From Robiginitomaculum sp. (GTDB taxonomy: Bacteria; Pseudomonadota; Alphaproteobacteria; Caulobacterales; Maricaulaceae): a stretch of DNA of 64,000 nucleotides. Shown here piece after piece: positions 1,809 to 62,172 of this stretch (positions within the stretch are counted from its first letter, which is position 1; every line of letters starts with the position of its first letter). The notes beneath the pieces are model-generated. The model had not been told where the DNA came from. It did no database searches and saw only the letters and a list, made by a program, of their open reading frames with translations. Where the stretch lies: assembly GCA_021776515.1 (NCBI GenBank), contig JAJFFS010000015.1, forward strand, positions 124,001-188,000. Reading direction: 5' to 3'. The position numbers and the translations under genes were made by a program.

Positions 1809-2642
1809 CTAGTTCTGGAACAGTGACAAAATTATCTGGGGCCGCGAATTGGCAATGCCCAGCGCCTGCACCCCTAATTGTTGTTGTACCTGCAAGGCTT
1901 GCAACTTGGCGCTTTCCACCGCCAGATCAGCATCAACAAGGTTGCCCACACCAACATTAAGCGAGTCTGTCAGTTTGTTGACAAATATACTGTGCGCTTC
2001 AATTTTTTTGATGTCCGAACCCAGATTTGCAAGGGCCTGATTAACATTGTCCAGTGACGTTTTAACAGCGGTTACAGCGGCATTGGCCAGTGTTACCGTT
2101 CCCAGGCTGGCCGTGGCAGCCAGTGTTATAATTGTTCCCCCAAAAGACAGGTTCTGGGTTTTTAGCGTCAAGACACTCGTTCCATCTGCATCGGCAAGAA
2201 ACCCGATACCAGGTGAGTTTGAGTTATCGAGAATATTAGCACCATCAAAAGCAGCATTGTTCAGGATAGTACTGATCTGTGAAATGATGGCCTTGAAGTC
2301 AGCATCAAAAGCCTTGCGAGAAAATGTATCGATTGAAGTATCAATGGCTGCTGTCGCCTTTGTTCGCAATTCGATAAGCAGATCGGAAATGGATTCGCCC
2401 GCAGCTAATGCCACATTGCCGATTGATGCGGCCCGGTCCAGCGAGGTGCTGACAGCATCATAAGCTCCAATATCTGATCGCAATCCTTGCGCAACGGCAA
2501 AAATTGCTGCGTTGTCCTTGGCACCGGCCACCTTCAACCCGGTATTAATTCGTGACTGAACGTTATCCAGCGAAGAATTTGTCTTATTCAGTTGTTGAAG
2601 AGCCGCAAGGGCTGAGGAATTAGTATGGACGCTGACTGTCAT
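1809..2642 (-). CDS. Flagellin (paralog 1, divergent)
   Basis: Flagellar filament subunit of about 277 residues, the short alphaproteobacterial type. The conserved N-terminal D0/D1 helix contains QSRINTGLKVAGAKDNAA. The C-terminal D1/D0 helix contains NLVDADLAVESAKLQALQ and ends in RPQIILSLFQN. The central variable part is small. It is more divergent from the other two flagellins here than they are from each other. The start at 2642 follows a GGAGCC ribosome-binding site; an upstream in-frame ATG at 2669 lacks one. A perfect sigma-54-type promoter lies about 70-85 nt upstream. Export is expected through the flagellar type III system, so no signal peptide is present. Confidence 0.95.
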   Translation of the reverse strand: MTVSVHTNSSALAALQQLNKTNSSLDNVQSRINTGLKVAGAKDNAAIFAVAQGLRSDIGAYDAVSTSLDRAASIGNVALAAGESISDLLIELRTKATAAIDTSIDTFSRKAFDADFKAIISQISTILNNAAFDGANILDNSNSPGIGFLADADGTSVLTLKTQNLSFGGTIITLAATASLGTVTLANAAVTAVKTSLDNVNQALANLGSDIKKIEAHSIFVNKLTDSLNVGVGNLVDADLAVESAKLQALQVQQQLGVQALGIANSRPQIILSLFQN

Positions 2643-2709
2643 GATAGGCTCCGACTCGTAAGTTTTCACTCATAGGGCAGCATTATCCGCCCCCCTGACA
2701 CATAGACAG

Positions 2710-2725
2710 AGCAACACTCGTGCCA
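2710..2725 (-). promoter_or_regulatory. Sigma-54 promoter of flagellin 1
   Basis: Reading leftwards the sequence is TGGCACGAGTGTTGCT, an exact match to the -24 TGGCAC / -12 TTGC consensus with the correct 5-nt spacer. It lies 68 nt upstream of the flagellin start at 2642. Class IV flagellin genes of Caulobacter-type alphaproteobacteria are known to use sigma-54 with an FlbD-type activator. Confidence 0.85.
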
Positions 2726-2876
2726 AAATTATGAACACGAATAATTTGTTTAATTTCAAAGATTTACACAGTTGATATTTTTTTTGGTCGGCAAGATTAA
2801 CCATAACATCCAGACCTGACCTGCCGGTCGGCGGCTTTTGCCGGGTGCCATTTTAGCGGCAAGAGTATCAGGCCTG

Positions 2877-3227
2877 TCAGGCCTCGGTATCAATGATCAT
2901 GCCTTCGGCAGCACGTGAGGCTGCGATAACGCGCAAAATTTCTTCACGAGGGAATTGCTGAATAACCTCACCTGTATTACCGTCTATACTTTTATAGATA
3001 TATCCGCCTGAAACTTCATTTTTTTCAATAACCAGACGTACATTAGCAGCGACCTGCACAGGCTCACTTTCAATCCTGGTTGAAGCGACGTCAGATACGG
3101 AAGTGTTTGTATCTACAGTAGCGTCCTGAACTTCTTTTTTGGGCGATTCCGTGGCTGTACCGCCACCACTACCAACTTTGGTTGAAGGCGGTACAAGAAA
3201 CGGAAATTTTCGTATCTCGTTTGCCAT
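2877..3227 (-). CDS. flaG: FlaG-family flagellar protein
   Basis: Protein of 116 residues. The first two thirds are low-complexity and Ser/Thr/Val-rich. The C-terminal part (about residues 60-110) has the FlaG pattern: VRLVIEKNEVSGGYIYKSID followed by TGEVIQQFPREEIL. FlaG proteins influence filament length or assembly. The start follows a TAGGA ribosome-binding site. The gene lies 134 nt downstream of flagellin 2 on the same strand with no convincing terminator or sigma-54 site in between, so it may be read from the flagellin 2 promoter. Confidence 0.8.
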   Translation of the reverse strand: MANEIRKFPFLVPPSTKVGSGGGTATESPKKEVQDATVDTNTSVSDVASTRIESEPVQVAANVRLVIEKNEVSGGYIYKSIDGNTGEVIQQFPREEILRVIAASRAAEGMIIDTEA

Positions 3228-3317
3228 TTTTCCTAAACCGTCTTTTCGGCCTCCTCGATGGGCCTGGCCACCGCGTCTTCTGCGCGTTTAGACCAGGCCG
3301 TTCGAAGGAAGTGTTGA

Positions 3318-3340
3318 CGAAAGCGGACCCCATGCTTTCG
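3318..3340 (-). other. Hairpin between flagellin 2 and flaG
   Basis: Inverted repeat CGAAAGC / GCTTTCG with a 9-nt loop just after the flagellin 2 stop. No T-tract follows, so it is more likely an mRNA-stabilising or partial attenuator structure than a full rho-independent terminator. This would allow high flagellin and lower flaG expression from one transcript. Confidence 0.4.
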
Positions 3341-3361
3341 CCAACATCCCTATCGTTTAGA

Positions 3362-4186
3362 CTATCGGAAGAATCCGAGAATCGTTTGTGGTGCCTGGTT
3401 GGCGATTGAAAGCGCCTGTACGCCAAGCTGTTGCTTGACCTGCAAGGCTTGCAAGTTCGCACTTTCCTTGGCCAGATCTGCATCGACAAGGTTGCCAATA
3501 CTGGCGGTCAGGGCATCAGACAGTTTCGTTACGAATCCTGACTGAATTTCCAAAGCCTTTGACTTGGTACCCAAACGCGCCAATGAAGCATTGATATTAG
3601 TGATCGAAGCTTCAATTTTGGCCAGATTTGTCGAGGCAAGAGTTTGCGTTGAAACATCATCTGCCGCAGCTAGAGTAACAATGGCTCCACCCAGTTGCAG
3701 GGCTTCATCCAAAACCGTAATTACGGATGAACCTGAAGCATTTGCCAAAGCTGCGATAGAAGCAGTTGTATTGTTAATCAGGTTTGTACCATTAAACGTA
3801 GCGTTGGTAACAATAGTTGTGATCTGATCGCGTAGCGCCTTAAAGTCTTCGTTAATCGCGGTACGAGATGCAGCATCAAGGGACGTATCTTTTGCTGCCA
3901 AAGCCTTTTCTTTCAAATCAATCAACAGATCAGAAATCGCCAGACCGGCAGCAGACGCAACATCCACAGCAGAACCAACACGGCTCAGAGACTCTTTAAC
4001 AACATCAAAAGCACGAACATCGCCACGCAATTTTTGCGCGATGGCAAATACACCGCCATTGTCTTTTGCACTGGCAACCTTCAAACCCGTACTAATACGG
4101 TTTTGAACTGTTTCCAAAGCACTAGAAGTTCTATTGAGGTTTTGTAGGGCGACAAGCGCGCCCGCATTAGTATTTACAGAAGCCAT
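3362..4186 (-). CDS. Flagellin (paralog 2)
   Basis: Flagellin of about 274 residues. The N-terminal helix includes NLNRTSSALETVQNRI and GLKVASAKDNGG; the C-terminal helix includes NLVDADLAKESANLQALQ and ends QTILGFFR. The ATG at 4186 follows AAAGGAACC; an upstream in-frame ATG at 4204 is less well placed. It is highly similar to flagellin 3 at both ends, including an 86-nt stretch identical base for base (3387-3472 versus 4528-4613). Its own sigma-54 promoter lies at 4263-4278. Multi-flagellin filaments are usual in alphaproteobacteria. Confidence 0.95.
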   Translation of the reverse strand: MASVNTNAGALVALQNLNRTSSALETVQNRISTGLKVASAKDNGGVFAIAQKLRGDVRAFDVVKESLSRVGSAVDVASAAGLAISDLLIDLKEKALAAKDTSLDAASRTAINEDFKALRDQITTIVTNATFNGTNLINNTTASIAALANASGSSVITVLDEALQLGGAIVTLAAADDVSTQTLASTNLAKIEASITNINASLARLGTKSKALEIQSGFVTKLSDALTASIGNLVDADLAKESANLQALQVKQQLGVQALSIANQAPQTILGFFR

Positions 4187-4262
4187 TTCTTGGTTCCTTT
4201 CCATTCTGGCTATTCACGCCGCGCATTTTGCGCAGCCGGGGTCTTTGACCCGTCGGAGCACT

Positions 4263-4278
4263 TGCAAGGCACGCGCCA
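4263..4278 (-). promoter_or_regulatory. Sigma-54 promoter of flagellin 2
   Basis: Reading leftwards TGGCGCGTGCCTTGCA matches TGGCAC-N5-TTGC with one change. It lies 77 nt upstream of the flagellin 2 start and downstream of the flagellin 3 terminator. Confidence 0.8.
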
Positions 4279-4455
4279 GTTGAAAATCTATTGAGGAGGT
4301 TTTTGCCTAGTAATCAGGAAAATCAAGAGCTTACCGCCAAAAAACAAGAACTTGCGCCATATTGGCACGGCAAAAAATGCCGGGATATGCGATTTTTGGC
4401 CGGTATTTCTTGCCGGGTCGGAATAAACGCACCAGAGTTATGGTAAATAAAATGC

Positions 4456-4488
4456 AAAAAAATGGGGCCGCGTAGAAACGCGACCCCA
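4456..4488 (-). terminator. Rho-independent terminator of flagellin 3
   Basis: On the minus strand a 10-bp stem TGGGGTCGCG / CGCGGCCCCA (one T-G wobble) with loop TTTCTA is followed by seven T residues. It begins 15 nt past the flagellin 3 stop codon. Confidence 0.9.
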
Positions 4489-4502
4489 GAAATTGAGTGA
4501 CC

Positions 4503-5330
4503 TTACTGGAAGAAAGCCAGTATTGTCTGTGGTGCCTGGTTGGCGATTGAAAGCGCCTGTACGCCAAGCTGTTGCTTGACCTGCAAGGCTTGCAAGTTCG
4601 CACTTTCCTTGGCTAGATCAGCATCGACAAGATTGCCAATACTGGCTGTCAGGGCATCAGACAGTTTGGTGGTGAAACTCGTATGAATTTCAAGCGCTTT
4701 TGACTTGGTGCCAAGTCGTGCCAATGAGGAATTAACATTCGTCAATGACGCATTGACGGCGGCCAAAGCCGTTGCCGCTGCCGCTGAAGTGTTAATCACT
4801 TCTGCCGCACCAACTGTAACAACGGCACCACCCAGTGACAGATCTTCATCCAGGACGGTAATGACCGCTGAACCAGCAGCATTTGCCAGTGCCGTAACGG
4901 AATTAGTACTACCATTAATCAGGTTTTTCCCGTTAAAACTGGCATTTGCCACTATAGTCTTGATCTGGTCTCGCAATGCTACGAAGTCTTCGTTTAATGC
5001 AGTACGAGACTGCGCATCCAGTGACGTATCCGTCGCTGCAAGCGCCTTTTCTTTCAAATCAATCAGCAAATCTGAAATTGCCTGCCCAGCGGCCGAAGCC
5101 ACATCAACAAGCGATTGCACCCGATTCAACGACTGATCCACAACACCCAAGCTTCGCACATCTCCGCGCAATTTTTGAGCAATAGCGAACACGCCGCCGT
5201 TATCCTTGGCAGATGCTACTTTCAAACCTGTACTAATACGATTTTGCACGCTTTCTAACTGCCTACTGGTCACATTCAAGTTTTGCAGGGCAACAAGCGC
5301 ACCTGCATTGGTATTGACTGATATAGCCAT
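4503..5330 (-). CDS. Flagellin (paralog 3)
   Basis: Flagellin of about 275 residues, closely related to paralog 2. The N-terminus is MAISVNTNAGALVALQNLN, and the C-terminal helix ends in QAPQTILAFFQ. The start at 5330 follows AAGGACC. A start at 5366 would add 12 residues that other flagellins lack. It is transcribed alone: a sigma-54 site lies at 5403-5417 and a strong terminator at 4456-4488. The variable centre (about residues 130-200) differs from paralog 2 while both termini are nearly identical, consistent with gene conversion. Confidence 0.95.
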   Translation of the reverse strand: MAISVNTNAGALVALQNLNVTSRQLESVQNRISTGLKVASAKDNGGVFAIAQKLRGDVRSLGVVDQSLNRVQSLVDVASAAGQAISDLLIDLKEKALAATDTSLDAQSRTALNEDFVALRDQIKTIVANASFNGKNLINGSTNSVTALANAAGSAVITVLDEDLSLGGAVVTVGAAEVINTSAAAATALAAVNASLTNVNSSLARLGTKSKALEIHTSFTTKLSDALTASIGNLVDADLAKESANLQALQVKQQLGVQALSIANQAPQTILAFFQ

Positions 5331-5402
5331 TTTGGGGTCCTTCCATTCTGTAAGGGGAACGGCCATTTTGGCCGATAGACATTCTTGTCCATCAGATACT
5401 TC

Positions 5403-16694: not shown

Positions 16695-17915
16695 ATGCCG
16701 CTCGTCAGCGCTATTGCATCAGACGTTACGCCAGATACTAATACAGGGCATACACGCACTATCCTTGCCCGGCGTCTGGCAGACATTCTATGCCTGCCAT
16801 CCAGTCGAATTACGCCGGTAGAAAGGCATATGTCTGGTGATTTACTGGTCGGTATTCTGACACAAAGTTCAATCAAATTACGCAAACAATGCGCACGCCG
16901 CATTGCGCCGCTGGGCGATGTAGCCACTGGTTTAATACGCTTTCTTGCCCGGGACGATATAGAAATTGCCCGCATTATTCTGGCCGACAGCGAGGCCATT
17001 AGCGATGTTCAATTGGTGGAAACAGCCCGCACGGCGACACTGGACCACCGTCTGGTCATCGCCCGCCGCAAAGAATTGAGTGAACTGGTCTGTGAGGCTT
17101 TATTAGCCCCTGGCGAACCAGAGGTTGTGGCCCATGTGCTCAACAATCAAACAGCGCACATCCCGCAAGATGCCCTGGAACATGCCGTGGAGCTAAGCCG
17201 GGAATATCCTTCGCTTTGCGGCGCACTTTTGAAACGTGCAGAGTTACGCCCGGCGCAGGGGTTCGCCCTATTCTGGTGGGCAGACGCAGCAGAACGCACT
17301 CGTGCACTTGAGCGTTTCGCGGTGGGGCGAGAAATAATGCAGGATGCTGCCGGGGATATTTTTACCATGATGGCCGAAGAAGACTGGCAAGACCCGCTGG
17401 TGCGTTCGGCCATGCAATTTATTGAACGTCGCCAGCGAAGCCGGGGTGCCATAGATAAAAGCCTTTATAGCAGCCTCGAAAACGCCATTGATATGGCTAT
17501 GGAAATTGGCCTGGATGCCAGTATGGCTGAGGAAATTTCTTACCTGAGTGGCATCAAGCCGGTCACTGGTGCCAAGATTATGAGTGACCATGGTGGAGAA
17601 CCGCTGGCTGTTTTGTGCAAAGCTACCGGATTAAAGAGAGCTTATCTTGTTAAACTCTGGCATGCGCTAAAACGCCCTGTAGGCACACAGGAAAACCCCG
17701 ATGCCGATATGCAAAGAGTTATTCATTGTTTCGACAGCCTGTCATCAAACAAGGCGCAAACTGTTTTGCGATACTGGAACTGGACACTCAGTGCTGAAAT
17801 GACGACAGAAACCAAGAGTGAAATACGGGCGCCAAGGGGCATAGGCAACGACACGGACGTATCCACATCAGAGCGCACTGCTGCGTTGGGATATGGCCAC
17901 TGGGGTGATAATTAA
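16695..17915 (+). CDS. DUF2336 protein
   Basis: Protein of 406 residues, all-helical and HEAT-like. Typical family segments include DDIEIARIILADSEAISDVQ, LDHRLVIARRKELSELVCEA and EPEVVAHVLNN. DUF2336 proteins are widespread in alphaproteobacteria with no established biochemical role. It is monocistronic: a terminator lies upstream and the riboswitch leader begins about 70 nt downstream. Confidence 0.8.
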   Translation: MPLVSAIASDVTPDTNTGHTRTILARRLADILCLPSSRITPVERHMSGDLLVGILTQSSIKLRKQCARRIAPLGDVATGLIRFLARDDIEIARIILADSEAISDVQLVETARTATLDHRLVIARRKELSELVCEALLAPGEPEVVAHVLNNQTAHIPQDALEHAVELSREYPSLCGALLKRAELRPAQGFALFWWADAAERTRALERFAVGREIMQDAAGDIFTMMAEEDWQDPLVRSAMQFIERRQRSRGAIDKSLYSSLENAIDMAMEIGLDASMAEEISYLSGIKPVTGAKIMSDHGGEPLAVLCKATGLKRAYLVKLWHALKRPVGTQENPDADMQRVIHCFDSLSSNKAQTVLRYWNWTLSAEMTTETKSEIRAPRGIGNDTDVSTSERTAALGYGHWGDN

Positions 17916-17982
17916 TCGAAACGCGTGTTGCGCATTTTATCGCGCATGCTAAAGCCAGCGCGCGGGTTTTCCGCAATTATAG

Positions 17983-18141
17983 ATCTTCGGGGCGGGGTGA
18001 AAGTCCCCACCGGCGGTAATGCCAGCCATGTTTGTGTGACTGGACAAGCCCGCGAGCCGGTCTTTTGTATGAAAGCAACTGACTAGCAGATACCGGTGAG
18101 AGCCCGGAGCCGACGGTTATAGTCCGGATGGTAGAAGGTCG
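17983..18141 (+). ncRNA. FMN riboswitch (RFN element)
   Basis: All the conserved RFN blocks are visible in order: CTTCGGGGCGGGGTGAAAGT, CCCCACCGGCGGTAATGCC, AGCCCGCGAGCC, the GCAGATACCGGTGAGAGCCC and GGAGCCGACGGTTATAGTCC segments, and GGATGGTAGAAGG. This is the FMN-binding aptamer that normally shuts off riboflavin biosynthesis or transport genes when FMN is abundant. Here the only gene behind it is a TonB-dependent receptor starting at 18258, so it most likely controls outer-membrane uptake. The variable arm between the third and fourth blocks is of ordinary size. Confidence 0.97.
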
Positions 18142-18218
18142 AACAGACGAGCGTGTCTCGCACACACTTTTGCATGTCCAAACGGCATGCAGAGGGCGTG
18201 TGCGTTATCTAGGTCTGT

Positions 18219-18257
18219 AAAACGCCCCGAAGCTGACTGTAGCTAAAGGGTTTTTTT
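18219..18257 (+). promoter_or_regulatory. Expression platform of the FMN riboswitch
   Basis: CGCCCCGAAG at 18223-18232 is the exact reverse complement of 17985-17994, the 5' strand of riboswitch stem P1, so it can act as an anti-P1 element. The same region can instead fold on the Shine-Dalgarno AAAGGG (18245-18250) and the T7 run (18251-18257): AAAA and CCC pair with GGG and TTTT, and AGCT pairs with AGCT in the loop. FMN binding would free this region to hide the ribosome site and/or end transcription. An upstream hairpin, GCACACACTTTTGC paired with the later GCGTGTGCG, also lies between. The mechanism is inferred. Confidence 0.7.
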
Positions 18258-20528
18258 ATGTACGCGTTTTCAAACATCAATACCGAGCAGTATTTTGGGC
18301 TAGCTTTGCTGTGCAAAGGCAAGAGGTATTCAGCATTCGGTATATTTTTTCTGCTTTGGGCTCTCTTGTCCCCGACGCCCTCCCGGGGAGCCGAAGATAA
18401 AAATTATAAAGGGAGTAATACGGTTGATCAGATCATTGTTACCGCGACAAGGCGTGCTGAAAATTTGCAGGACGTACCGATCTCTATCACCACTTTTTCA
18501 GCCCAGGAAATCAAGGCCTATCAACCTGTAGACCTTGAAGACCTGAGTGACCATGTACCCAATATGTGGATGCCTGCTTCTACAGAAGCCGGGCAAAGTT
18601 TCATTACTATTCGCGGGATCAATGCCGGCATAACACGAAGTACCGGGCGCGCTGTTGGCGTGTATATTGACGGCGTTTATGTCAATGCCGATACGGCCAT
18701 GAATATTGCCATGACAGACATTACCCGCATTGAAGTTCTAAAAGGGCCGCAAGGGACTTTGTTTGGCCGCGACACCATCGGAGGCGCCATCAACATCACC
18801 ACCGTTCAACCGGATGGCGCCACAGATGGCGGCATTCAAATTGATCTTGGCAATCAGGATTTGCGACAGATTTTGGCCCGGGCCAACCTGCCACTGGCAA
18901 AGGATATTTTGTCCTTGCGCCTTGCCGCCTATAAACGTGACAAAAGTGGTTATATCGCAAACGCTTTCACAGGACGAAAGGCCGGCGCAGAAGACCATAC
19001 CGCCTTTAGTGCGCAAGTTAGCTACCACCCCAATACACAACTGACTGCACAATTGGCCTTGCGGGTGCAGGAGAAGGACGACAGACCCAATACCATGGGC
19101 GAAGCCATAACCAATATTGGCTCTGACACTATTCCCTTTACCATTAATCTCGATCAGGATGAAATTCACAAACAATCAGCCCAAAGTTTATCGTTTAATG
19201 CTGATTACTCTTTTGCCAAAGGCCATACATTAAACTGGACAACGGGCTGGTCACATGTGGATGATTTTTACCTGCAAGATGGCGACCGGCTGCCCCTCTC
19301 CATTACAGAGGCACAGTTTGACGGCAAGGCAGAAGAATTTTCACAGGAAATCCGCCTGACCTCCCCGCAACACTCTCGCTTTGATTATCTTGTTGGTCTT
19401 TATTACCTTGATGCTCAAAGAAATTTTGACCCGACATTCCCGGTCATGGGCAGCGCCTTCCTGCAACAGGTCATCGGCATTCCGTCGCAATTCCACCCAC
19501 CAGATACACTGGACGGACAACGCGTCGCCGCAGATACAAAAAGTCTGGCTGCCTTTGCCCATGCCAATTTTTATCTTGATGACAAACTCACAGTATATGG
19601 CGGCATACGTTACACTCATGACCGCAAAACAGTAGATTATAACAGCTTTGGCGAAGTGTTTGAGGTCTTCGGCCTACCGCCCTTTAGTGCCAAATCCCGG
19701 GTTAGCGATAAGCCCGTTTCCTGGATGGTTGGCACACGCTATCAGTTTCACGATGAGATTATGGGGTATGCCAACATCAGCCGTGGCTATCGCAGCGCTG
19801 CCATCAAGGATGACTTTGTTTCTGCCGCCGACATCGCTGCCGGTGAAGGCTTTTTTACCAAACCCGAATTTGTAACCAATTATGAGACTGGGATAAAATC
19901 CCGGTTTCTGGATAATAAAATACGCGTCAATGCCACAGCTTTTTTTATGGATTATACAGACATACAAGCCTCGGTTTCCCGACCACCTTTTTTGTTTCTG
20001 CAAAGCCTGACCAATGCCGCCAAGGCTCATATCAGCGGATTTGAGGCAGACCTTACCGCCCGTCTCTCCAATCATTTGAACGCTTCAGCAGTAGTGGGTT
20101 ATGTGCGAACACGCTATGATGAATTTAGCCCCAGCCCCGGGGTAAGCCTTGCCGGGACCAGTTTTGGTACGGCGCCGGTATGGAGCTTGAGCACTGCTCT
20201 GGACTACCATCGGCCTCTGACCAACGGTGGGGAGTTATCCGCACATATCGACTATGTGAACAGAACTGCGCCCGCAACTGTACCACCTGGGTCTCCTGGT
20301 TTTGTAGGGGATTATGGTCTTGCCAATGGCTGGGTAGGTTATGAACCCGGTCACGGAAATTGGCAGGTACGCCTTTGGGTGAAAAACATTGCAGACGTGA
20401 ACCTGCCTGCGGTGAATAAATTGTGGGGCGCTGGCCTTGGCCCCCTGATCGAGAACGAGACTGTTCGTTATGAGCCTCCTCGCACCTTTGGTCTCTCGTT
20501 CAGCATCCAGTTTGGGGAACGTACATAA
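18258..20528 (+). CDS. TonB-dependent outer-membrane receptor under FMN riboswitch control
   Basis: Protein of 756 residues. A long N-terminal region with a hydrophobic signal segment (about residues 27-40) is cleaved near PSRGA. A plug domain follows: DQIIVTATRRAENLQDVPIS, FITIRGINAG, then VEVLKGPQGTLFGRDTIGGA as IEVLKGPQGTLFGRDTIGG. The beta-barrel comes last, ending FGLSFSIQFGERT. Overall it is like the large Caulobacterales/Sphingomonadales TonB receptor family, whose substrates are mostly unknown. The riboswitch suggests a flavin or a flavin-regulated compound as cargo. The gene has AAAGGG seven bases before the ATG. It is alone on its transcript, with a strong hairpin terminator after it. 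Confidence 0.93.
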   Translation: MYAFSNINTEQYFGLALLCKGKRYSAFGIFFLLWALLSPTPSRGAEDKNYKGSNTVDQIIVTATRRAENLQDVPISITTFSAQEIKAYQPVDLEDLSDHVPNMWMPASTEAGQSFITIRGINAGITRSTGRAVGVYIDGVYVNADTAMNIAMTDITRIEVLKGPQGTLFGRDTIGGAINITTVQPDGATDGGIQIDLGNQDLRQILARANLPLAKDILSLRLAAYKRDKSGYIANAFTGRKAGAEDHTAFSAQVSYHPNTQLTAQLALRVQEKDDRPNTMGEAITNIGSDTIPFTINLDQDEIHKQSAQSLSFNADYSFAKGHTLNWTTGWSHVDDFYLQDGDRLPLSITEAQFDGKAEEFSQEIRLTSPQHSRFDYLVGLYYLDAQRNFDPTFPVMGSAFLQQVIGIPSQFHPPDTLDGQRVAADTKSLAAFAHANFYLDDKLTVYGGIRYTHDRKTVDYNSFGEVFEVFGLPPFSAKSRVSDKPVSWMVGTRYQFHDEIMGYANISRGYRSAAIKDDFVSAADIAAGEGFFTKPEFVTNYETGIKSRFLDNKIRVNATAFFMDYTDIQASVSRPPFLFLQSLTNAAKAHISGFEADLTARLSNHLNASAVVGYVRTRYDEFSPSPGVSLAGTSFGTAPVWSLSTALDYHRPLTNGGELSAHIDYVNRTAPATVPPGSPGFVGDYGLANGWVGYEPGHGNWQVRLWVKNIADVNLPAVNKLWGAGLGPLIENETVRYEPPRTFGLSFSIQFGERT

Positions 20529-20532
20529 TAAA

Positions 20533-20589
20533 CGGCCTTGGTAGCGAGTGTTGCTCTTTCTTCAAAGCAAGACTCGCCAAGGCGGTTTT
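20533..20589 (+). terminator. Terminator after the riboswitch-controlled receptor
   Basis: Long hairpin: GCCTTGG-GCGAGT-TTGCT pairs with AGCAA-ACTCGC-CCAAGGC, with single-base bulges and a 10-nt loop, followed by GGTTTTCC. It separates the receptor from the Mrp operon. Confidence 0.75.
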
Positions 20590-20646: not shown

Positions 20647-21138
20647 ATGGGGTACGCAATATCCTTGACGACTGCGATGGCGGTGCTTTGGCTAGTGTTG
20701 TCAGGCCATTATGACAACACGTTATTGCTTGGTCTGGGTGCTGGATCTGCAATATTCACAACGGCCCTGGCCTGGCGGTTGCACATACTTGATACGGAAA
20801 CTTCGCCTTATCACAAGCTGTGGCAATTTATGCTCTATTGGCCTTGGCTATTAAAAGAAGTCATCAAGGCAAATATTATCGTCATCCGCACCATTCTGGC
20901 ACCAGATATGGTTCTAACCCCTCGTATGGTCCGCGTAAAAACCTTGCCACGTACGGATTTTGCCCGAGCGTTATACGCCAATTCAATCACGCTAACACCG
21001 GGTACAGTCAGTGTTGATCTGGATGACGACGAAATCATTGTTCATGCCGTGCTTAAAGAAATGACCGGCAAAGGCGGATTTGCTGAAATGTCGGCCCGGT
21101 GTGCCCGGGCCTGCGGTGAAAAGGAAAGTTCTGCATGA
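20647..21138 (+). CDS. mrpE: Mrp cation/proton antiporter subunit E
   Basis: Protein of 163 residues, MnhE/MrpE family. Two or three N-terminal membrane helices are followed by the typical cytoplasmic part: ALYANSITLTPGTVSVDLDDDEIIVHAV, where the SITLTPGT motif is diagnostic. It is the first gene of a nine-gene operon that exports Na+ or other monovalent cations in exchange for protons. GGGGAG lies before the ATG. The ATGA overlap with mrpF indicates coupled translation. Confidence 0.93.
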   Translation: MGYAISLTTAMAVLWLVLSGHYDNTLLLGLGAGSAIFTTALAWRLHILDTETSPYHKLWQFMLYWPWLLKEVIKANIIVIRTILAPDMVLTPRMVRVKTLPRTDFARALYANSITLTPGTVSVDLDDDEIIVHAVLKEMTGKGGFAEMSARCARACGEKESSA

Positions 21139-58407: not shown

Positions 58408-59646
58408 GTGGCCCTGACCCGCGAAAGCCTTGTTACCCGCGATGCCAATGACCCACTTGGGAAATTTCGTGATGAGTTCACTCTGCCGGATGGTGTGATT
58501 TACCTTGATGGCAATTCACTGGGGGCCATGCCTGGTGCCGCTAAAGAACGCATTGAAACGCTGGTATCAAAAGAATGGGCGCAGGATTTGGTTACCAGCT
58601 GGAATGTAAATGGCTGGTTTGATCTACCCGCACGTATTGGCGCAAAAATCGCCCGTTTAATTGGCGCCCGGGAAAACGAAGTTCTGGTCACCGACAGCAC
58701 CGGGATTAACCTCTATAAGCTGTTATCCATGGCCCTTGAATTGCGCCCGGACCGCAAGATAATTTTGATGGAGGGGAGTAATTTCCCCACCGATAATTAC
58801 ATTGCGCAAGGGCTTGTCCGCCAGCTAGGCCAAGGCCATGAGGTTCGCTTTGCTGAAAAGCACGATTTTGAGGCGCAGATTACGCCAGATATTGCCGTCG
58901 TGGCGCTCACCCAGGTGCATTATAAAACCGGCCATGTTTATGACATGGACAAGATTACAGAGCGCGCCCATGACGCCGGGGCGCTGATCTGCTGGGACCT
59001 GTGCCATAGCGCCGGGGCATTGCCGGTTAATCTTGAGGCGGCCAAGGCCGACTTTGCCGTTGGCTGCGGATATAAATACTTGAATGGCGGCCCCGGTGCG
59101 CCAGCATTTCTGTATGTTGCGAAACGCCATCAGGGACAGGCGCAACAACCGCTAACCGGCTGGTGGGGCCATGCGGAGCCGTTCGCCTTTGAGCGCGATT
59201 ACCGCCCGGCGGGTGATATTCGTCAATTGATGAGCGGTACGCAGCCCGTTTTATCACTGGCTGCACTGGAAACTGGCGTGGATATGATGCTGCGCGCCGA
59301 CATGCACGTGGTGCGAGAGAAATCCATGGCACTTGGCGACCTGTTTATCGCACTTATGGAAGAGCAATGCGCACCATACGGGTTTGAACTGATTAGTCCG
59401 AAAAATGCCCAGGATCGTGGCAGCCAAATCGCGTTTGCTCACCCCCAAGGCTATGCCATCATGCAAGCCTTGATCGAGAAACGTATCATCGGCGATTTTC
59501 GGGCACCTGACGTAATGCGCTTTGGTCTGACGCCGCTTTATACGCGCCATGTTGATGTGTGGGATGCCGTGCAGGGCATCAAAACAGTGATGGAACAAAA
59601 CCTCTGGAAAAACCCGCGCTTTGCCAAGCGCGATGGCGTTACCTGA
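58408..59646 (+). CDS. kynU: Kynureninase
   Basis: PLP enzyme of 412 residues that splits kynurenine into anthranilate and alanine. IYLDGNSLGAMP, TDSTGINLYKLLSMAL, LICWDLCHSAGALPVNLEAA, and the Schiff-base Lys in GCGYKYLNGGPGAPAFLYV identify it. Starts with GTG after GGGAG. Tryptophan dioxygenase is not in the window, but a kynurenine-formamidase-like gene lies 2.6 kb downstream on the other strand. Confidence 0.95.
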   Translation: MALTRESLVTRDANDPLGKFRDEFTLPDGVIYLDGNSLGAMPGAAKERIETLVSKEWAQDLVTSWNVNGWFDLPARIGAKIARLIGARENEVLVTDSTGINLYKLLSMALELRPDRKIILMEGSNFPTDNYIAQGLVRQLGQGHEVRFAEKHDFEAQITPDIAVVALTQVHYKTGHVYDMDKITERAHDAGALICWDLCHSAGALPVNLEAAKADFAVGCGYKYLNGGPGAPAFLYVAKRHQGQAQQPLTGWWGHAEPFAFERDYRPAGDIRQLMSGTQPVLSLAALETGVDMMLRADMHVVREKSMALGDLFIALMEEQCAPYGFELISPKNAQDRGSQIAFAHPQGYAIMQALIEKRIIGDFRAPDVMRFGLTPLYTRHVDVWDAVQGIKTVMEQNLWKNPRFAKRDGVT

Positions 59647-59690
59647 CCCCCATCTGCCGTCACGAAACCTCTTCGCATTATCGCTTGCCC

Positions 59691-59730
59691 ATTTGCTTTA
59701 GTGTTAAAGCATTTACTTTAGTATTAAAAC
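59691..59730. promoter_or_regulatory. Tandem 20-bp operator-like repeat upstream of TonB receptor 2
   Basis: Two adjacent 20-mers, ATTTGCTTTAGTGTTAAAGC and ATTTACTTTAGTATTAAAAC, match at 16 of 20 positions. Each has a dyad core (GCTTTA-GTGT-TAAAGC in the first). A 20-bp period puts them on the same helix face. Typical of a dimeric repressor site; located 115-154 nt before the receptor start. Confidence 0.6.
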
Positions 59731-59844
59731 AAGCTAAATTATAAAAACATCAACTCACTCGCAGGAACGCAAAAACGGTTTTCTGTATTGTTTACGATGT
59801 TGAGAAAGCGACGCAATTGCAAATAAATTGAGGGGAACGTTATA

Positions 59845-62172
59845 ATGAAAGCAGAAATTTCAAAGAGGAAAAATTTTAGTGCTCATACCCGTGTACAGCT
59901 AGCCGCCGGCGCATCCATGCTGGTCATGGCATGTGTACCAACACTTGCCATGGCACAGAACAATAACGATGGCGATTCTGATGAAATCATCATTACGGCT
60001 TCTAAACGAGGCGGACAGTCTCTGCATGATGTCGCCATACCGGTGCAGGCGATTTCTGGTGATGAATTGGCCGCACGCGGCGTCAAGGATTTTGCCGACT
60101 GGGCCATAGCCGTACCTTCTTTGCGCTATGAAGACCTTGGACCGGGCGACAAGCGTATCTTTTTACGCGGCATTAATTCCATCGGAGCGTCAACTGCCGG
60201 TGTCTATTTCGATGAAGCCGTTATTACCGGTTCCAACAAGGAAGATGGCGGTGGACGCAGCGTGGACACCAAACTTTATGACCTTGAACGCATCGAAGTG
60301 CTGAAAGGGCCACAAGGCACACTCTATGGCGCAAATTCCATGTCTGGTACTATCAAGCTGATTCCGAAAAAGCCAAGTTTGGATCAAATGGAAAGCTATA
60401 TTGATAGCAGTGTGGGCGGCACAGAACACGGTGGTTTTGACTGGGGCGTTAACGCCATGGTCAATTTACCTCTGTCGCAGGACAAGTTGGGCCTACGGGT
60501 TGTGGCCTGGAATGACGAGCGCTCGGGCTATATTGATAATGTTCGTCTGGGGCAAAACAATATCAATGATGAAAACACCTGGGGTACGCGCGCCATGTTG
60601 CGCCTTGCCGCAAACGAGCAGTTTACGGTTGACGCCTCAGTTATGATACAACGCACTCATTCCAATGGCACCTCTCGTGAAACGCCGACAGGCACCATCG
60701 GCCATGTGCCCACCACTGTTCTGCCAACCTTTCAAGGCGGTGATTATACCACCACCTCGTTCACCAGCGATGTCTGGGATGATGATTGGGAAATTTACAG
60801 CCTGACAGGCGAGTACAGAATGGATAACGGTACCATTACCGCCACCACAAACTGGTTTGATCGGGAATTGAATTTCAATTTTGATTCAACGCCAATCCTG
60901 TTATTCTTTGGTGTTCCAATTCCGGCCATTACCAAGCAGCCACAATCACGCCGCGTCTGGTCTAATGAATTGCGCTATGCCTCAAACTGGGATGGACCAA
61001 TACAAGTTGTACTGGGCGGTTTGGTCCAGCGCGAAAAAACAAATTTTGAAGTGCAAGTAATCGCCTCTGATCCGGTTACCGGCTTTGCACTGGGACCATT
61101 TGATCCAGACACCGATGCACTGGCCGGTACGGGTAACGCCTTTTTTGGCCGGACTAATGACGGCACCATCAATCAGGAAGCCCTGTTTGGTGAAGCTTCA
61201 GTTGATCTGACTGACAAGCTGACAGCCACTGCCGGGCTTCGGTATTTCCATTCGAGACAAAAATCTTCTGAAGTACAAACTCACCCCTTTGGTGGATTTC
61301 CCAATGCCAACCGTCCGGACCCGGACCCCAATGATGACAGCAACAACAAAGTCACCTCTAAATTCAACCTGGCCTATAAAGCCGATGATAATCTGTTGAT
61401 CTTTGCTACCGCATCACAAGGTTTTCGGGTGGGTGGTCTGAACGCCGCCAGCCTGCCGTTGATCGCTGGTGTGCCGCGCAATTTTGGACCTGACAGCCTG
61501 TGGAACTATGAAGTTGGCATAAAGAACAGCGTGGCAGATGGCCGGGTTTTCTTTGACCTTTCTGTCTATCAGATCGATTGGTCAAACATGCAGTCGGTCA
61601 GTAAAGATGCAACCGGTGCGTTTCAGTTTATTGCCAATGCCGGTGATGCCCGCATTCAGGGGATCGAACTGAACGGCACAGCAAAGCTTACCGATAACTT
61701 TAAGGTGTCGGGCGGGCTTGCCTTTACCGACGCCAGACTGGTCAAGGATCAGCCCGGTGTAACCCCGGGTAATATTATCGAAGTGACCAATCCAGGCCAC
61801 AAAGGCGATGATATTCCTAATGTGCCAGAGTTCACGTTTAACGCTTCGGCTGAATACACCTACCCGGTTGGCGACACCTTGCAAGGCATAGCCAGGCTCG
61901 ATTTTTCCTATGTCGGAAAATACCAAACCGAGTTTCGCCCGCAAGGCACTGGCCCTGGCTTAAATCCCTTCACCCAGACCGTCGGCGGCTATGCCACAGT
62001 CAATTCGACCATCGGTGTGGAGAATGATCGCTGGGGTGCCAAATTATTTGTCAACAATTTGTTTGATGAACGCGGCATTGTTGATGCCATTGCCTCTGAC
62101 CAGGATCCACTGGCATTTCTTATAACCCGGCCAAGAACCTATGGCCTGAACATCACGGTACGCATGCCCTGA
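59845..62172 (+). CDS. TonB-dependent outer-membrane receptor (second)
   Basis: Protein of 775 residues. Signal peptide cleaved after LAMA (about residue 37), TonB-box region DEIIITASKRGGQSLHDVAI, plug domain with IFLRGINSIGA and IEVLKGPQGTLYGANSMSGT, beta-barrel ending TYGLNITVRMP. GGGGAAC ribosome site. Substrate unknown; context (kynU upstream, formamidase-like hydrolase downstream) suggests an aromatic or tryptophan-derived compound. Not preceded by a riboswitch. Confidence 0.93.
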   Translation: MKAEISKRKNFSAHTRVQLAAGASMLVMACVPTLAMAQNNNDGDSDEIIITASKRGGQSLHDVAIPVQAISGDELAARGVKDFADWAIAVPSLRYEDLGPGDKRIFLRGINSIGASTAGVYFDEAVITGSNKEDGGGRSVDTKLYDLERIEVLKGPQGTLYGANSMSGTIKLIPKKPSLDQMESYIDSSVGGTEHGGFDWGVNAMVNLPLSQDKLGLRVVAWNDERSGYIDNVRLGQNNINDENTWGTRAMLRLAANEQFTVDASVMIQRTHSNGTSRETPTGTIGHVPTTVLPTFQGGDYTTTSFTSDVWDDDWEIYSLTGEYRMDNGTITATTNWFDRELNFNFDSTPILLFFGVPIPAITKQPQSRRVWSNELRYASNWDGPIQVVLGGLVQREKTNFEVQVIASDPVTGFALGPFDPDTDALAGTGNAFFGRTNDGTINQEALFGEASVDLTDKLTATAGLRYFHSRQKSSEVQTHPFGGFPNANRPDPDPNDDSNNKVTSKFNLAYKADDNLLIFATASQGFRVGGLNAASLPLIAGVPRNFGPDSLWNYEVGIKNSVADGRVFFDLSVYQIDWSNMQSVSKDATGAFQFIANAGDARIQGIELNGTAKLTDNFKVSGGLAFTDARLVKDQPGVTPGNIIEVTNPGHKGDDIPNVPEFTFNASAEYTYPVGDTLQGIARLDFSYVGKYQTEFRPQGTGPGLNPFTQTVGGYATVNSTIGVENDRWGAKLFVNNLFDERGIVDAIASDQDPLAFLITRPRTYGLNITVRMP

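Follow-up and report, generated by a model that had tools for sequence, protein, structure and literature searches.

In proteobacteria, flavin mononucleotide (FMN) riboswitches are laid out with a mutually exclusive anti-aptamer and sequestor and it is generally assumed that passage of free flavins through the outer membrane needs no dedicated receptor. The main text of two transporter surveys (PMC4418817 and PMC3766115) leaves the outer-membrane passage of vitamin B2 (riboflavin) open, and in a part of the latter RibXY of Roseiflexus castenholzii is presented as an importer under an FMN riboswitch which compensates for a missing rib operon. The locus reported here lies in a 64,000-nucleotide (nt) stretch of Robiginitomaculum sp. 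DNA (hereafter the window; contig JAJFFS010000015.1, positions 124,001 to 188,000), in which an FMN riboswitch precedes the gene of a TonB-dependent outer-membrane receptor (TBDR). It is comparable to RibXY in placing a predicted importer under this riboswitch where riboflavin synthesis genes are missing, but RibXY is an ABC-type transporter related to ThiXYZ and includes no TBDR. Since the riboswitch heads a TBDR gene in bacteria that apparently lack vitamin B2 synthesis, the receptor is probably a vitamin B2 receptor, and we have considerable confidence in the prediction that it is an FMN-repressed outer-membrane importer of riboflavin (or of FMN or flavin adenine dinucleotide, FAD) in a riboflavin auxotroph.

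The elements of the system are as follows (coordinates are those of the window):

17979..18143, plus strand: FMN riboswitch aptamer (RFN element, RF00050), an Rfam match over the gathering score

17985..17994, plus strand: CTTCGGGGCG, 5' strand of the closing-stem region of the aptamer and the competition-prone segment, with 10-nt complementarity to 18223..18232

18223..18232, plus strand: anti-aptamer segment CGCCCCGAAG, a 10-nt Watson-Crick complement that would pair with 17985..17994 or join the start-site hairpin

18224..18251, plus strand: start-site hairpin (ViennaRNA), the 3' strand of which covers the GGG of the ribosome-binding-site-like AAAGGG (18245..18250); U residues and then the start codon come next

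18258..20528, plus strand: TBDR of 756 amino acid (aa) residues with plug and beta-barrel domains, predicted flavin importer

A first-pass annotation made from the sequence had described a complete RFN element located 116 nt before a TonB receptor of 756 residues. The element is indeed complete, as the RF00050 match covers model positions 1–138 of 138 and reaches 97.3 bits (gathering score 66.2, E 3e-21), and the receptor is as described, while the spacing required correction since the gap between aptamer and open reading frame (ORF) is 114 nt. This is the only Rfam match above the gathering score in the window, and the only FMN riboswitch found in the genome (2.57 Mb, 99.85% complete). The product of the downstream gene is a TBDR by its TonB plug and beta-barrel domains and its plugged barrel fold, and its translation holds a stretch ahead of the plug, DQIIVTA, which we take to be TonB-box-like.

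Concerning riboflavin synthesis, lumazine synthase (RibH, PF00885), riboflavin synthase (RibE, PF00677) and 3,4-dihydroxy-2-butanone 4-phosphate synthase (RibB, PF00926) were not found in this genome, nor in 15 of its 17 genus-mates, the exceptions being genomes G010 and G015 of our sample. RibH and RibE were present in all 19 non-genus relatives searched (among relatives, the PF00926 search covered the genus only), and in 14 control genomes PF00885 was detected in 14, PF00926 in 14 and PF00677 in 11. The flavokinase/FAD synthetase RibF (PF01687) is encoded in this genome and in 15 of the 18 genus genomes, the three misses being 70–77% complete. From the absence of RibH, RibE and RibB and the presence of RibF (RibD and RibA were not searched) the organism is predicted to be a riboflavin auxotroph; with these genes missing and RibF kept, the genus, two exceptions aside, would therefore depend on imported flavin for making FMN and FAD.

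Conservation of the pair of riboswitch and receptor was assessed in 61 genomes, comprising this one and 60 relatives (18 of the genus, 19 others of the family and 24 others of the order). The riboswitch occurs in 17 of the 61, namely in 10/18 genus genomes, in none of the 19 other family members and in 7/24 other members of the order, and the genus count above cut-off remained 10/18 under laxer filters. In nine of the ten riboswitch-bearing genus genomes it precedes an orthologous TBDR, and among the 18 genus genomes TBDR matches at E <= 1e-100 are confined to exactly these nine. Receptor identity to the orthologs is 61–67% for the six full-length relatives and 55–70% over the matched part for all eight. 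The nine receptor-linked riboswitches score 92–109 bits each and keep the conserved aptamer core, with long invariant runs in the alignment. The genes upstream of the pair, sufE, a mauE-like gene and a DUF2336 gene, recur in 7 of the 8 relatives, and mnhE lies downstream of the receptor in six, the contigs of G007 and G001 ending within the receptor gene. The upstream exception is G001, where 2,025 bases hold no match to sufE, the mauE-like gene or DUF2336 and contain other genes instead, by eye resembling those of an aldehyde dehydrogenase and a phosphoribosyltransferase; as the surroundings differ and the pair is intact, riboswitch and receptor evidently hold together. Lack of such a pairing in related genomes, which the first-pass annotation had named as grounds for rejecting its proposal, was thus not what the relatives revealed.

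Neither of the two genus genomes with rib genes (G010 and G015) carries the pair, both being without the receptor, while nine of the 16 rib-less genomes carry it. The tenth riboswitch of the genus, that of G015, heads a ribD-ribE-ribBA-ribH cluster. No riboswitch match was obtained in G010, where the rib contig ends approximately 1.2 kb upstream of ribE and the missing part may hold one. At order level, all six riboswitches of one family (f5) lie ahead of a set of clustered rib genes as judged by eye, with NCBIfam confirmation for four genes in G060 and for ribD in G040, and that of G054 precedes a lumazine synthase gene. Pairwise identity gave no preference for the rib-operon riboswitch of G015 as the nearest relative of the receptor riboswitch (63–69% to G015, up to 75% to riboswitches of other families), and so does not indicate the origin of the latter.

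In a class-level draw of 385 genomes, 70 genomes, among them the present one, gave 71 riboswitch matches in all. Setting this genome aside leaves 69 genomes with 70 matches; these matches precede rib genes (60), EamA-family genes (3), an NMN_transporter-family gene (1) and a TBDR gene (1), or fall to no assigned target (5, two of which score below the Rfam cut-off); hence 64/70 are located at rib genes or at genes for carriers from families with known flavin-carrying members (family names as given in part of PMC6593275). The EamA-family (RibN-like) cases are G278 and G310, with RibH, and G366 (83% complete), without it. In G165 (L222:2424-3299, minus strand), a genome that is 95% complete and without RibH, the riboswitch precedes the NMN_transporter-family carrier, which by its family and setting is likely a PnuX/RibM-type flavin importer in an auxotroph; an FMN riboswitch would therefore mark an importer in a synthesis-less genome with a known carrier family too. 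In two genomes of one family, G146 and G426 (L214 and L237), none of the ORFs that start within 900 nt after the riboswitch is recognisable as a rib gene, and family members G258 and G349 carry a RibH match at the position where G146 and G426 show none; in the latter two RibH may be disrupted or missing, or the assembly may be at fault.

The single further TBDR case is that of G175, from another family, where an FMN riboswitch (110 bits), an 806-aa TBDR and a major facilitator superfamily (MFS) carrier follow one another (L241:5871-9923), the carrier beginning 9 nt past the TBDR stop codon; a hairpin that has a U run and resembles a terminator was recognised by eye between riboswitch and TBDR. 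Only 24 plug residues of this TBDR are alignable to the receptor described here, and recruitment of the riboswitch by a TBDR was therefore probably independent in G175. This genome retains RibH, and since its TBDR was found in none of the other three genomes of its family (1/4, i.e. G175 alone), the case is supported by a single genome. The MFS protein is a candidate for flavin transport across the inner membrane. It has one MxxxM motif and no HxxxM motif; both motifs are conserved, according to part of PMC6362234, in the CalT copper importers formerly termed RfnT. The same part of that paper reports that RfnT imports copper rather than riboflavin, so that the first-pass annotation was mistaken in counting it among the flavin carriers.

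The search for this pairing, proposed in the first-pass annotation for alphaproteobacteria at large and made here among relatives and in the class sample, returned nine of 18 genus genomes and G175. Its suggestion of active flavin uptake across the outer membrane gains support from the absence of RibH, RibE and RibB with retention of RibF, from the pair in half of the genus, from the rib-operon position of the riboswitch in G015 and from the probably independent riboswitch-TBDR-MFS operon. We also think it probable, if with somewhat less assurance than for the receptor itself, that dedicated vitamin B2 TBDRs exist and that members of unrelated receptor subfamilies have come under FMN riboswitch control on two or more occasions, one being in a rib-less genus and another in the G175 lineage with its RibH and MFS carrier.

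With regard to the leader, CGCCCCGAAG exactly complements CTTCGGGGCG over 10 nt, a length equalled in none of 300 shuffled leaders. A similar segment is present in the relatives, and in 7/9 genomes the anti-aptamer match is 8–10 nt long, with at most 6/300 shuffles as long. The start-site hairpin, for which −9.8 kcal/mol and a z-score of −1.45 were calculated here, attains z-scores of −2.05 to −3.78 in the other eight leaders and is predicted in 9/9 (with start codons chosen by us) despite diverged leader sequences, its strands varying from CGCC with GGCG in G011 to CGCCC with GGGCG in G005 and ACACCC with GGGTGT in G008. This layout of anti-aptamer and start-site hairpin, recurring in relatives, fits shut-off by FMN, the OFF direction being inferred. 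At high cytoplasmic FMN the aptamer would form and CGCCCCGAAG would be freed to fold onto the ribosome-binding site, so that the receptor would not be made; given the U run that follows, the released hairpin could in this genome possibly also act as a terminator, and termination could thereby supplement translational control. At low FMN, CGCCCCGAAG would pair with CTTCGGGGCG of the aptamer, leaving the start site open for production of the receptor, which would import external flavin using TonB energy. Some inner-membrane carrier would then hand riboflavin to the cytoplasm, and RibF would convert it to FMN and FAD, thereby closing the loop.

A number of observations weigh against assigning the receptor to flavin import under FMN control. 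Both the receptor and an over-cut-off riboswitch are lacking in seven of the 16 rib-less genus genomes (G003, G006, G009, G012, G014, G016 and G017), four of which are at least 92% complete; auxotrophy therefore does not require the pair, and other flavin routes must exist. In the leader, the anti-aptamer match does not exceed chance length in G004 and G001, and the start-site hairpin of the present genome is weak, 28/300 shuffles being equally stable. The minimum-energy folds of the whole unliganded leaders display the competing aptamer/anti-aptamer pairing in only 2/9 cases (G005 and G008), the 5' strand of the aptamer lying in its own aptamer stem in 5/9 and in other pairings in 2/9, and with such a split the energies alone are indecisive on the switch. 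No inner-membrane partner was found: the MFS carrier of G175 has no match in the 18 genus genomes (E <= 1e-15, in a search without positive control), and carriers of the RibN, ImpX and RibXY types were not searched for. Finally, the nearest solved fold is that of the siderophore receptor FyuA.

Within flavin import, the natural ligand may be a flavin other than riboflavin, such as FMN, FAD, flavoprotein fragments or ferric-flavin complexes; we hold this to be the less likely form of the proposal, unlikely though of appreciable probability. Control by an FMN riboswitch and auxotrophy would suit any flavin source, and RibF is retained; there is nothing specific against this version, which would additionally call for a phosphatase in the periplasm or for a carrier of nucleotides. 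Lumazine-type precursors are unlikely as ligand because RibH and RibE are absent.

Alternatively, the receptor may import some other nutrient, such as iron bound to a siderophore, with FMN reporting on the redox or iron status of the cell. An AlphaFold2 model of good quality, built from a 45-sequence input (that from a 7-sequence input, with a predicted local distance difference test score, pLDDT, of 50.6, was discarded), places siderophore receptors nearest among solved folds, FyuA first. The best NCBIfam match is likewise a siderophore subfamily, below its cut-off (159 vs 223.5), and parts of PMC5816637 and of the review PMC6041382 describe links between iron and riboflavin regulation in Vibrio cholerae. 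However, fold and family do not fix the ligands of TBDRs: the vitamin B12 receptor BtuB, the pyrroloquinoline quinone (PQQ) receptor PqqU and haem receptors are also among the fold matches, and with matches to receptors for siderophores, B12, haem and PQQ alike, the attempt to derive the ligand from the fold was uninformative. The receptor also falls below the NCBIfam cut-offs for BtuB (44.5 vs 836) and PqqU (31.1 vs 1200). Moreover, the sole FMN riboswitch of a genome devoid of RibH, RibE and RibB sits on this very receptor, and the class sample places nearly all other riboswitches on rib genes or flavin-carrier-type families. Flavin-dependent control of another nutrient, the alternative raised in the first-pass annotation, is thereby weakened, and we regard it as improbable.

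A further reading, that the riboswitch was left over or moved here by chance and has ceased to control the receptor, as the weak hairpin here and the short matches in G004 and G001 might suggest, is very improbable and was rejected in view of the scores and invariant core of nine riboswitches linked to receptors that are 55–70% identical, of the hairpin predicted in every one of the diverged leaders and of the persistence of the pair in G001 despite different upstream genes.

For the predicted flavin receptor, 93 residues are invariant in seven receptors (alignment A1) and common to at most 3/38 homologs, phenylalanine being the most frequent among them (13). They cluster at residues 105–145, 390–421, 459–468, 516–538, 577–591 and 717–737, which is suggestive of a conserved ligand site. 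The nearest TBDR in named records (from which records very near this genome may be excluded) has 39% identity and derives from a Kordiimonadaceae metagenome genome (L083). No riboswitch above threshold was detected for it, and it bears an N-terminal extension and adjoins a FecR-like gene recognised by eye.

The boundaries of the locus are given by three further features:

16695..17915, plus strand: upstream neighbour with DUF2336 (Pfam PF10098), outside the system and marking the locus

20530..20588, plus strand: terminator-like hairpin in the gap between receptor and mnhE (−29.4 kcal/mol, z −4.30, 0/200 shuffles as stable)

20647..21138, plus strand: downstream neighbour MnhE, a Na+/H+ antiporter subunit (Pfam PF01899), outside the system

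The first-pass annotation had placed a terminator after the receptor and deduced that the receptor is the sole target of the riboswitch. A strong hairpin is indeed present before mnhE; it has a short U tract only and is absent from the list of a simple terminator scan (simple promoter and terminator scans performed at chance level), for which reasons the receptor is likely but not proven to be the sole target.

Elsewhere in the window, at 58408-62172, aldehyde dehydrogenase-like and acyl-CoA ligase-like genes lie upstream of a kynureninase gene (TIGR01814, above cut-off), and downstream of it comes another TBDR (59845-62172); this region is possibly a locus for uptake and catabolism related to tryptophan or kynurenine. 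On the minus strand, 1809-5366 holds three tandem flagellin-like genes, the first matched to flagellin families and the other two recognised by eye.

With a specific gene, a genus and a further operon of probably separate origin, the present analysis offers material on which active outer-membrane uptake of flavins may be tested. Dedicated vitamin B2 TBDRs, if confirmed, would contradict the assumption of receptor-free outer-membrane passage of flavins; B2 would join B12 and B1 in having a riboswitch that governs a TBDR, and the riboswitch-receptor pair would be a marker of riboflavin dependence in genomes and metagenomes.

The view of the first-pass annotation that no outer-membrane receptor is established among FMN riboswitch targets agrees with our literature searches, in which no published TBDR under an FMN riboswitch was found among open-licence papers. 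Where 'TonB-dependent' and 'FMN riboswitch' occur in one paper, the terms co-occur incidentally in the portions of text concerned, and neither 'TonB' nor 'outer membrane' appears in the main text (supplements excluded) of PMC3766115, with its 233 FMN sites, or of PMC4418817. Compared with the FMN riboswitch regulons of proteobacteria, the locus is alike in its aptamer and inferred OFF logic, and its leader resembles in style, by eye, that before ribD in the relative G040, whereas the target here is an outer-membrane receptor. PqqU (YncD), a TBDR for the redox cofactor PQQ, has 14% identity to this receptor. The closest parallels in logic come from other vitamins: an adenosylcobalamin riboswitch lies on the gene of the B12 receptor BtuB (as set out in part of PMC11162775), and in Caldithrix abyssi a thiamin pyrophosphate riboswitch precedes a TBDR of the BT2390 type for vitamin B1 (as set out in part of PMC5317091), differing in vitamin and riboswitch and in a locus that adds a symporter and a thiamin pyrophosphokinase gene.

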